The notes beneath the pieces were generated by a model. It saw only the letters and a program-made list of their open reading frames with translations, ran no database searches and was not told the origin of the DNA. Made by a program: the position numbers and the translations under genes. DNA of 64,000 nt from an uncultured Bacteroidota bacterium (GTDB lineage: Bacteria > Bacteroidota > Bacteroidia > Flavobacteriales > Flavobacteriaceae), in contig CACASE010000001.1 in assembly GCA_902535165.1 (NCBI GenBank), forward strand, positions 124,001-188,000, written 5' to 3'. Of the stretch, positions 55,399-60,546 are shown in pieces (within the stretch, counting starts at the first letter, position 1; every line of letters begins with the position of its first letter).

Positions 55399-56259
55399 TT
55401 AGCCTTTTAATGCTTCTGCACCTGAAACTATTTCTAAAATTTCATTGGTAATTGCAGCTTGTCTTGCTTTGTTATATGTCAAAACTAACTCATCTTTTAA
55501 TTCTGTAGCATTGTCAGTTGCTTTATGCATAGCTGTCATTCTAGCCCCATGCTCACTTGCAAATGAATCTCTAAGGGCTTTAAATAATTGTATTCTTAAG
55601 GATTTCGGTACTAATTCACTAACAATTTGTTCCATCGAAGGTTCAAAAATATAATTTTGTAGAGCCTCAGATTCTGAATCATTAACTATTGGTAATAATT
55701 GTTCTGATTTAATAATTTGATTAGCAGCATTTTTGAAGCTGTTATAAATTATTTCAACATGATCATATTTTTCGTCTGCAAAATCCTGAACAATTTGGTC
55801 AATAATCGGACTTGAGTTTTCATATGAAAGTTCATCAAAAATTTCACTTTTATTTTGAATGATATTTTCTGTTTTAGACAAAACATCATTTGCTTTTTTT
55901 CCTATAACGATGAAATAAAACTCAGCATTAGAGAACTTTTCTAAGGATTTTAATGATTTTGATTGCTTAACAATATTTGAATTAAAAGCTCCACAAAAAC
56001 CTCTGTTAGATGCAATAGCAACTATCAAAACTTTTTTTATTGGTCTTTGTGCTGCCAAATATGAAATATTTGAAGAAGAAATAACATTTGTAAAACTTGA
56101 CATCAACTCATTTAATTTTTCTGAATAAGGTTTCATTGCTGTAATTGCATCTTGAGCTTTTTTAAGTTTCGCAGCAGAAACCATTTTAATAGCACTTGTT
56201 ATCTTCATTGTCGAAGTAACAGATGAAATTCTATTTCTTATTTCTTTAAGATTAGGCAT
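55399..56259 (-). CDS. atpG: ATP synthase F1 gamma subunit
   Basis: A 286-residue protein of the right length with typical ends: [36 protein letters not shown] at the start and [24 protein letters not shown] at the end, the coiled-coil rotor that fits into the alpha/beta ring. It is the last structural gene of the operon; atpD and atpC, which often follow elsewhere, are absent here and are probably at another locus, as is common in Bacteroidota. Confidence 0.98.
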
Positions 56260-56263
56260 CTAA

Positions 56264-57841
56264 TTATTCATATGTAGCAGATAAATCCGAAGCAACTTTT
56301 TCTAAAGTAGAAGTTACTTCATCAGTTAATTTACCTTGCTTAATTTGATTTAATATTTTTTTGTGTTTTAGGTTCAAAAGCTCAATAAATTTCTTTTCAA
56401 AATCCTTTACTTTTTCAACCGGAACACCTTTTAATAAATCTTTTGATCCTAAATAAATAATTGAAACTTGATCCTCAACTTTAAAAGGATCATTTTGAGC
56501 TTGTTTTAGAATTTCAACATTTCTTTTACCTTTTTCAATTACACTTAGGGTTACTGGATCTAAGTCAGAGCCAAATTTAGCAAATGCTTGTAATTCTCTA
56601 AATTGAGCTTGATCCAACTTTAATGTTCCAGCAACTTTTTTCATGGACTTAATTTGTGCAGATCCACCAACTCTTGAAACAGAGATACCCACATTAATAG
56701 CAGGTCTAACACCTGAGTTGAAAAGATCAGACTCTAAAAATATTTGACCATCTGTAATAGAAATAACATTTGTAGGTATATATGCTGATACGTCACCTGC
56801 TTGTGTTTCAATAATTGGCAATGAAGTTAAAGAACCACCACCCTTTACAATTGGTTTAAGTTTTTCAGGAAGATCATTCATGTTTTTTGCAATACCATCA
56901 TCGTTGATAACCTTAGCAGCTCTTTCCAATAATCTTGAATGTAAATAAAATACATCACCTGGATAAGCTTCGCGGCCTGGAGGTCTTCTTAAAAGAAGTG
57001 ATACTTCTCTGTAAGCAACTGCTTGTTTAGAAAGATCATCATAAATAATTAATGCAGGTCTTCCTGTATCTCTAAAAAATTCACCAATAGCAGCACCAGC
57101 AAATGGAGCATAAACCTGCATGGGGGCGGGATCAGATGCATTTGCTGCAACAATGGTTGTGTAGGCTAAAGCACCTTTTTCTTCAAGTACTTTTGCAATA
57201 GCTGCGACAGTGGAGGCCTTTTGTCCAATTGCCACATAAATACAGTAGACAGGTTCTCCCGCGTCAAAAAATTCTTTTTGATTCAAAATGGTATCAATAC
57301 ATACTGTTGTTTTTCCCGTTTGCCTATCACCAATCACTAATTCTCTTTGGCCTCTACCAATTGGAATCATTGCATCAATTGATTTAATACCAGTTTGAAG
57401 GGGTTCGTTAACAGGCTGTCTATATATAACACCAGGAGCTTTTCTTTCCAATGGCATCTCATACATCTTACCTTCAATTTTACCTTTACCATCAATTGGT
57501 TGTCCTAATGTATTTACAACTCTTCCAACAACTCCTTCTCCAACATTAATTGAAGCAATTCTATTTGTTCTTTTTACAGTATCTCCTTCTTTTATCTCTT
57601 TGGACGGACCTAACAAAACGACACCAACATTATCTTCTTCAAGATTTAATACGATTCCCTCCATTCCATTATCAAACTGCACTAATTCACCATATTGAAC
57701 ATTTGAAAGACCATAAACCCTTGCAATACCATCACCTACTTGCAAGACAGTTCCTACCTCATCTAATGATGGGCCAACTTTTGATCCCGTTAATTGATTC
57801 TTAATAATTGCTGATATTTCAGCGGGCTTAATATTTGCCAT
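56264..57841 (-). CDS. atpA: ATP synthase F1 alpha subunit
   Basis: A 525-residue protein. Walker [10 protein letters not shown] lies near residue 172; the arginine-finger segment [12 protein letters not shown] and [14 protein letters not shown] near residues 370-390 are the alpha signature. It is the non-catalytic, regulatory nucleotide-binding subunit of the F1 head. Gaps to atpG (four bases) and atpH (three bases) show tight operon structure. Confidence 0.98.
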
Positions 57842-57844
57842 AAT

Positions 57845-58393
57845 TTATTGTATTGTTATGTTTAAAAATTCTTGTTCCAACTTTTTAAGTTGATCTTTAA
57901 AACTAGCATTGTATTGTAAATCTCCTACTCTTAATATAAATCCGCCAACAATTTGTTTATCAACTATATTGGTTAGATTAACATTTTTTGATGTTAGTTC
58001 TTTTACTTTTTGTTCTATTTCATTTAACTTATTAGGTTCAACTTCTGAGGCGGTTGTTAGTGTAACTTCCTGGTTACCTACATAATCATTATATAAAACT
58101 GTAAAACTTTTGGAAACATCGTCAAAAAGATCAATTCTCCTGTTTTTCATTAATAGTTTGATTAGGCTTTTACTCGAATCATTAAGATCCTCAAAAATCT
58201 CGTTTAGAGTAGCTAGTTTATCACTGTCTTTGATAACCTTGCTATCAATAAAAAGCTTAAGCTCTTCAGATTGATCAAAAGTATTATTGATAAATGACAT
58301 ATCATTATGTGCTGCTTCAAGTTTGTCATTATCATCCTTACATGACAATAATAAAGCCTTAGCGTACCTGAATGCTACTCTGTTATAATTCAT
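57845..58393 (-). CDS. atpH: ATP synthase F1 delta subunit
   Basis: A 182-residue helical protein. It starts MNYNRVAFRYAKALL and has the C-terminal IVDKQIVGGFILRVGDLQYNASFKDQLKKL, the family signature (GG.. r.gd.yd.S). It links the F1 head to the b subunit stator. The start overlaps the atpF stop by four bases. Confidence 0.96.
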   Translation of the reverse strand: MNYNRVAFRYAKALLLSCKDDNDKLEAAHNDMSFINNTFDQSEELKLFIDSKVIKDSDKLATLNEIFEDLNDSSKSLIKLLMKNRRIDLFDDVSKSFTVLYNDYVGNQEVTLTTASEVEPNKLNEIEQKVKELTSKNVNLTNIVDKQIVGGFILRVGDLQYNASFKDQLKKLEQEFLNITIQ

Positions 58394-58890
58394 TTAAGTT
58401 TTACGTCCTTTAATAATTCATCAACAATTTTCATTTGCTTATCATTTTCTGAAAGCTTCTCATTTAGAAGTTTCTCGGCAATTTCAATAGAAAGACCTGC
58501 AACTTGCTTTTTAATCTCAGAAACAGCAGCATTTTTTTCATTTCTAATTGCTTCATTAGCGCTTTCAATGATTTTTTCTGCTTCTTTTTTAGCTTCATCT
58601 TTAGATTCATTTATGATTGCTTTCTTTAAATCTCTAGCTTCTTTTAAAATTGAATCTCTTTCAATTCTGGCCTTTTTCATGATTTCTTCATTATCAGCTT
58701 GTAATAATTGCATCTCTTCTCTTGCTTTTTCAGCAGATTCAAGAGCATCTTTAATTCCTTCTTCTCTTTCATTTATTGTATCTAAGATTGGCTTCCAAGC
58801 AAATTTTTTCAACAAAAAAATTAAAGACAAAAAAATTAAAGAGTGCCAAAAAAATAGCCCAAGTGAAAATTCTTCTAGTAATTTTTCCAT
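58390..58890 (-). CDS. atpF: ATP synthase Fo b subunit
   Basis: A 166-residue protein with one N-terminal membrane helix (LFFWHSLIFLSLIFLLKKFAW) and a long charged coiled coil (about 30-130), the normal form of subunit b in Bacteroidota. It forms the peripheral stalk. A 55-base gap separates it from atpE. Confidence 0.96.
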   Translation of the reverse strand: MEKLLEEFSLGLFFWHSLIFLSLIFLLKKFAWKPILDTINEREEGIKDALESAEKAREEMQLLQADNEEIMKKARIERDSILKEARDLKKAIINESKDEAKKEAEKIIESANEAIRNEKNAAVSEIKKQVAGLSIEIAEKLLNEKLSENDKQMKIVDELLKDVKLK

Positions 58891-58945: not shown

Positions 58946-59155
<210 letters not shown>

Positions 59156-59171
59156 TTAACATAATTTAAGT

Positions 59172-60244
59172 TTAATGTTCATGCTCTTCATTTGCAAATC
59201 CAAAATATAAAGCAGACAAAATAGTAAAAATGTAGGCCTGTAAAAGCGCTACAAAAAGTTCAATAATCATTAATAAAAAGGCTAGAACAAATGAAAGCGA
59301 ACTGCCGATCCAGTTGTAAAATATAAACATAAGCCCTATTATACTCATGATTACTATGTGACCCCCTTGCATATTAGCATACAATCGAATCATGAGGGTT
59401 AACGGTTTTATAAAAACGCCTAAAAGTTCTATTGGTGCTAAAATAAGTCTGATAGGCTTTGGTACTCCAGGCATCCAAAAAATGTGTGCCCAATAATTTT
59501 TATTAGCTGTAACGTTTGTAATAATGAACGTTAACAAGGCTAGCGAAAATGTAATTGCAATATTTCCAGTAACATTAATCCCAATTGGTGTCAAACCTAA
59601 TAGATTTAGGAATAATACAAAAAAGAAAATAGTCAAAAGAAAGCTCATATATTTCTTATAATTCTTGCCAATATTTGGTCTAGCAATTTCATCTCTAACG
59701 TATAAAACTATAGGTTCAAAAAACCTCCCCAATCCTTTTGATATCCCTTTATTAGTCTTATATGATTTAGCTAGACTTATAAATAACCATAACATAAATA
59801 TTGCAGTAAAAATCATGACAACAACATTTTTAGTTATTGAAAAATCAATTGGTTTCTCATTAATTAATTTATTGGTGTCATCATAAATAAATGTTCCTTC
59901 ACTATCTGTTTTATAGATTCTATTTTTATCATAATACATTCTGTAGTAGTTATCATTACTAGAAACCACTTTTTACCATGTTTAAACTCTGATGACATGA
60001 AAAACTTAAATCCATTATCATAAAGAATTACAGGTAAGGGAATTTCAATATATACTTTTTCACCATTCTCTTTGGTATAAGATGCAACTCCAAAACTATG
60101 TGAATCTTTAAGGTGGTGTGTAATATATTCTTTGATTTCTTCTTTAATTCCGCCACTTTTTTCAGGGTCTTTATCAATCGAATAGCCGTGGGCAGATAGG
60201 CAAAAAACTAAACTAAGTGAAAGAAAAAAATTTGCAAAATTCAT
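59172..60244 (-). CDS. atpB: ATP synthase Fo a subunit, split by a -1 frameshift
   Basis: The gene reads 92 codons from the ATG at 60244, with a signal peptide and the Bacteroidota-type N-terminal domain (EIKEYITHHLKDSHSF, IPLPVILYDNGFK, FMSSEFKHGKK). At AAG (59971-59969) the frame must shift back by one so that the protein continues as VVSSNDNYYRMYYDK and then the membrane core (PNIGKNYKKYMSFLLTIFF, MIRLYANMQGGH with the essential Arg, and YIFTILSALYFGFANEEHEH). Unshifted, it ends at 59864. The fused product would be 357 residues. The run at the shift has five A residues; six would restore the frame. Confidence 0.9.
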
Positions 60245-60306: not shown

Positions 60307-60546
60307 CTATTTATCTAATTTCTTTAACTGTTTATAAACAACAAAAAATGCAATTGCAAATCCAATTAAAGACATTATTATAATGAAGGTTTTTTCAAGG
60401 TTGTAATAAGAATCTATCCATTTGCCAATCCTTGAAAAAATAAAGATAGTGATCCCCATTTCAAAGCTGATCAACGCAAATGTTGCTAATGTACTACGCT
60501 GTTTTTTCAGCTTCTGGTTTTTTATCGTTAGCACTTTCGCTTTCAA
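60307..60546 (-). CDS. atpZ: AtpZ/AtpI-type small membrane protein
   Basis: The frame from 60546 gives 79 residues; the first codon is TTG and the 5' 53 bases overlap the bactofilin gene, so the true start may be later (GTG or CTG a few codons in). Two membrane helices follow the basic N-terminus KKQRSTLATFALISFEMGITIFIFSRIGKWID and end in YKQLKKLD. AtpI and AtpZ precede ATP synthase operons and take part in c-ring assembly or ion entry. Position before atpB supports the call. Confidence 0.8.
   Translation of the reverse strand: MKAKVLTIKNQKLKKQRSTLATFALISFEMGITIFIFSRIGKWIDSYYNLEKTFIIIMSLIGFAIAFFVVYKQLKKLDK

Follow-up and report, generated by a model that had tools for sequence, protein, structure and literature searches.

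Does the atpB gene of this uncultured marine flavobacterium, which occupies two reading frames in the deposited sequence, represent a broken gene, a recoded gene, or an error in the sequence? The window, i.e., the whole stretch of 64,000 nucleotides that was analysed, is part of a 191,750-base contig in a draft genome of 1.32 Mb (40 contigs, 82% complete). Its atpB is located on the minus strand in two ORFs (Table 1). The 5′ ORF is opened by an ATG at 60244; codons 1–92 (to 59969) encode the signal peptide and N-terminal domain of ATP synthase subunit a, and the final 34 codons are out-of-frame nonsense ending at a stop at 59864. The membrane core of subunit a is found in the −1 frame, from a GTG at 59969 to 59172, and matches the Pfam family ATP-synt_A (PF00119) with 184 bits against a curated cut-off of 33.9. 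The two frames meet without loss at AAAAAG (59974–59969). The sequence-only reading, which had described an atpB split by a −1 frameshift at a five-A run, was exact in both coordinates and frames.

Table 1. Features of the atpB locus and the neighbouring operon segment (positions are those of the window).
Feature	Coordinates	Strand	Basis
Small membrane-protein ORF directly upstream of atpB, AtpI/AtpZ kind (putative)	60307..60546	-	Position and sequence
atpB 5′ part	59864..60244	-	ORF of 126 aa; coordinates and alignment to intact relatives
Five-A run, the frame break	59970..59974	-	Six A in the eight nearest homologues
atpB 3′ part: remaining N-terminal segment and membrane core (PF00119)	59172..59969	-	265 aa from GTG, E = 4.6e-54
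atpE (subunit c), next operon gene, open and uninterrupted	58946..59137	-	Named by sequence
atpF, atpH, atpA, atpG, each open and uninterrupted	55399..58890	-	Named by sequence and order

A −1 fusion at AAAAAG is predicted to yield 92 + 265 = 357 residues, which is the length of the product of the nearest intact relatives when read from the homologous ATG (e.g., ...SSEFKHGKKVVSSN...). In tblastn, four relatives each gave two abutting pieces (frames −1 and −3) joined exactly at the A run, an agreement beyond chance. By ORF order, with the neighbours named by sequence instead of family search, atpB precedes the genes for subunits c, b, delta, alpha, and gamma. Since atpE, atpF, atpH, atpA, and atpG are all open, the operon segment is otherwise intact. 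An intact second atpB, which the sequence-only reading had considered as a reason to regard this copy as a pseudogene, was not found in the 82% complete assembly, where the sole PF00119 match is the window atpB; the status of a spare pseudogene was rejected on this basis. A search of viral contigs for the atpB join gave no match.

Comparison with relatives narrows the defect to a single base. The window has five A at the break, whereas the eight nearest homologues have six, the result that had been proposed as the sign of a sequencing error. With the AtpB of Bacteroidota/Flavobacteriales (F-type subunit a, PF00119), the window shares the signal peptide, the N-terminal domain (HHLKDSH...LPVILY...FMSS), and the core, and DNA identity reaches 97.9% (over 959 bases, with the closest homologue, L010). 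It differs from them in an A run that is one base shorter, which breaks the frame in the deposited sequence; in the 87 alignment columns shown around the site, the missing base is the sole difference from L010. Of the 22 other species in the genus, 20 gave an atpB match, each passing through the site in one open frame, 331 to 384 codons long (the shortest being cut by contig ends), compared with 266 codons in the window by the tool's count. In a second scan, which shares part of its genomes with the genus scan, all 80 atpB loci stay open upstream of the core match for 60 codons or more. Across 396 genomes of the order, only the window's match, among those listed, has an open frame no longer than 266 codons, and two other atpB matches among those listed contain one in-frame stop.

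The comparison also yielded several side observations. One in-frame TAA is present in the atpB matches G029:C2:77234-78013, G212:C2:43988-44719, and G317:C67:7092-7835 from other genomes of the order, which could be similar assembly errors or alignments overrunning an end. One of the eight nearest homologues, L045 (NYXO01000055.1), is placed in the MAG ‘Euryarchaeota archaeon isolate ARS96’, although its atpB protein is 93% identical to that of the flavobacterial window; this contig is very likely mis-binned. Among close relatives, the N-terminal part of subunit a (59969–60244 in the window, and its homologues), and above all the signal peptide, is more variable than the core.

Substitutions relative to L010 bear on the age of the break. 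In the core, 228 codons show 12 synonymous substitutions and not one amino-acid change. The N-terminal part has one synonymous and five amino-acid changes in 90 codons; three of the five fall in the signal peptide, and at three of the five (positions 5, 53, and 60) the window residue is that of other relatives. Neither half of atpB, as judged from these substitutions, is decaying. Because of this and the absence of amino-acid changes in the core, the break is either extremely recent or technical.

The gene is otherwise under selection, and its homopolymer differs in length from the one in every close relative, as expected of an artefact. The one-base gap is very probably a product of sequencing, amplification, or assembly. 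The locus would then be an ordinary atpB for which the deposited sequence is short of one base in an A6 run, a base most likely lost when the DNA of an uncultured marine flavobacterium was amplified, sequenced, or assembled. In the living cell, atpB would most likely be one 357-residue frame, like that of its relatives. What counts against an artefact is that a run of five or six bases is not hard for short-read sequencing, and that the contig is otherwise clean, with no other split gene found. When the contig was scanned with the proteins of relatives, the sequence open to comparison came to about 127 kb and held no split gene besides atpB, the comparison covering this one contig and only those parts with homologues from relatives. 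The idea of a generally error-ridden window was rejected, as comparison with the relatives turned up just this one split gene on the contig. In relative G014, taken as the control, the frame seemed to change at two minor places over 146 kb, the mirror image of the atpB split not counted. The GORG-Tropics single-cell workflow has been benchmarked at an average of 3.0 indels per 100 kb (PMC11247762), a rate that the single split gene in about 127 kb does not exceed. Among the nearest relatives are uncultured marine Bacteroidetes, many with AG-/AH- names of the kind given to single-cell genomes, and MAGs labelled Cryomorphaceae or Flavobacteriaceae. These kin, together with the 40 contigs and low contamination, suggest that the window genome is a single-cell assembly, and the kin also point to a GORG-Tropics-like workflow.

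A real one-base deletion in a single cell or strain, i.e., a very recent loss of atpB function that would soon be lost or reverted, comes second in likelihood to an artefact but is unlikely. Replication slippage is common in A runs, and a break that is single and clean, with no other split gene in about 127 kb, would suit such a deletion; it would, however, have disabled the sole atpB copy found, in an operon segment that otherwise remains intact and with neither half of the gene in decay. Loss of atpB in an aerobic marine flavobacterium should be severely harmful, so cells carrying it should be rare.

It is highly unlikely that the full protein is restored from a gene with truly five A by slippage at the run, whether through ribosomal −1 frameshifting or during transcription. 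The frames do join exactly at AAAAAG, where the lysine tRNA in the A site would be able to pair again with AAA after a −1 step, but the site reads T_AAA_AAG, which confirms the earlier remark that a full X_XXY_YYZ heptamer is lacking, and a slip would leave the P-site tRNA on TAA. Like the A_AAA_AAG of E. coli dnaX, the site places the lysine codons AAA AAG where the shift would occur; it differs from dnaX in having T for the first A, hence no complete heptamer, and no downstream stem-loop that could be found. No stimulatory RNA structure was detected downstream when 59980–59885 was compared with shuffled sequences (z = 0.05 for pseudoknot-free folds). In the 147 ORFs of at least 150 codons on the contig (51,947 codons), in-frame AAA AAG is preceded by T 37 times and by A, giving the stronger A_AAA_AAG, 38 times. 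With 37 in-frame occurrences, T_AAA_AAG is commonplace rather than distinctive in a genome this rich in A+T. Conservation is expected of a recoding site that matters, and the frame break with its shift site was found in none of the 20 genus species with a match, the 80 loci, or the eight nearest homologues.

In E. coli and Buchnera, insertions during transcription increase exponentially as runs lengthen (PMC5574713), which makes five A a poor substrate. The closest parallel in the literature is chloroplast atpB (subunit beta), studied in Oenothera and tobacco, where frameshift mutants are partly corrected by recoding at longer oligo-A ([11A] in the mutant; PMC8254509). The plastid atpB of Oenothera I-iota resembles the window atpB in that an A run of an ATP synthase gene carries an indel, but it encodes another subunit, has a longer run and a +1 insertion, and its recoding was shown experimentally, whereas the window offers no evidence of correction (PMC8254509). 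Correction in the chloroplast gene needs a long homopolymeric stretch: it was strongly reduced when the run was broken by AAG codons, and in E. coli only about 5% of activity was left in −1A constructs, which have a single base deleted (PMC8254509). Of the two sources of the break offered by the sequence-only reading, an assembly indel (five A for six) agrees with the eight nearest homologues, while slippage is unsupported. It is highly improbable that five A are real in the population and that all subunit a of this bacterium's only ATP synthase comes from low-level slippage at a minimal T_AAA_AAG site.

That subunit a is truly two proteins, the second starting at the in-frame GTG (59969) that opens the core ORF, is hardly credible, as the signal peptide and most of the N-terminal domain would be missing from the core fragment, the first fragment would finish with 34 nonsense residues, and the relatives keep one chain, with a split in none of them.

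Since the gene is whole in every relative and the site bears no mark of programmed shifting, the split atpB is most likely an error of sequencing, amplification, or assembly rather than new biology. In draft genomes of uncultured bacteria, a single-base indel in an A run can mimic recoding of an essential gene, and caution is needed when such cases are read as biology. Were the run of five A genuine and corrected, the cell would rely on a shift site of unusual weakness for an essential respiratory enzyme, and recoding specialists would be surprised.
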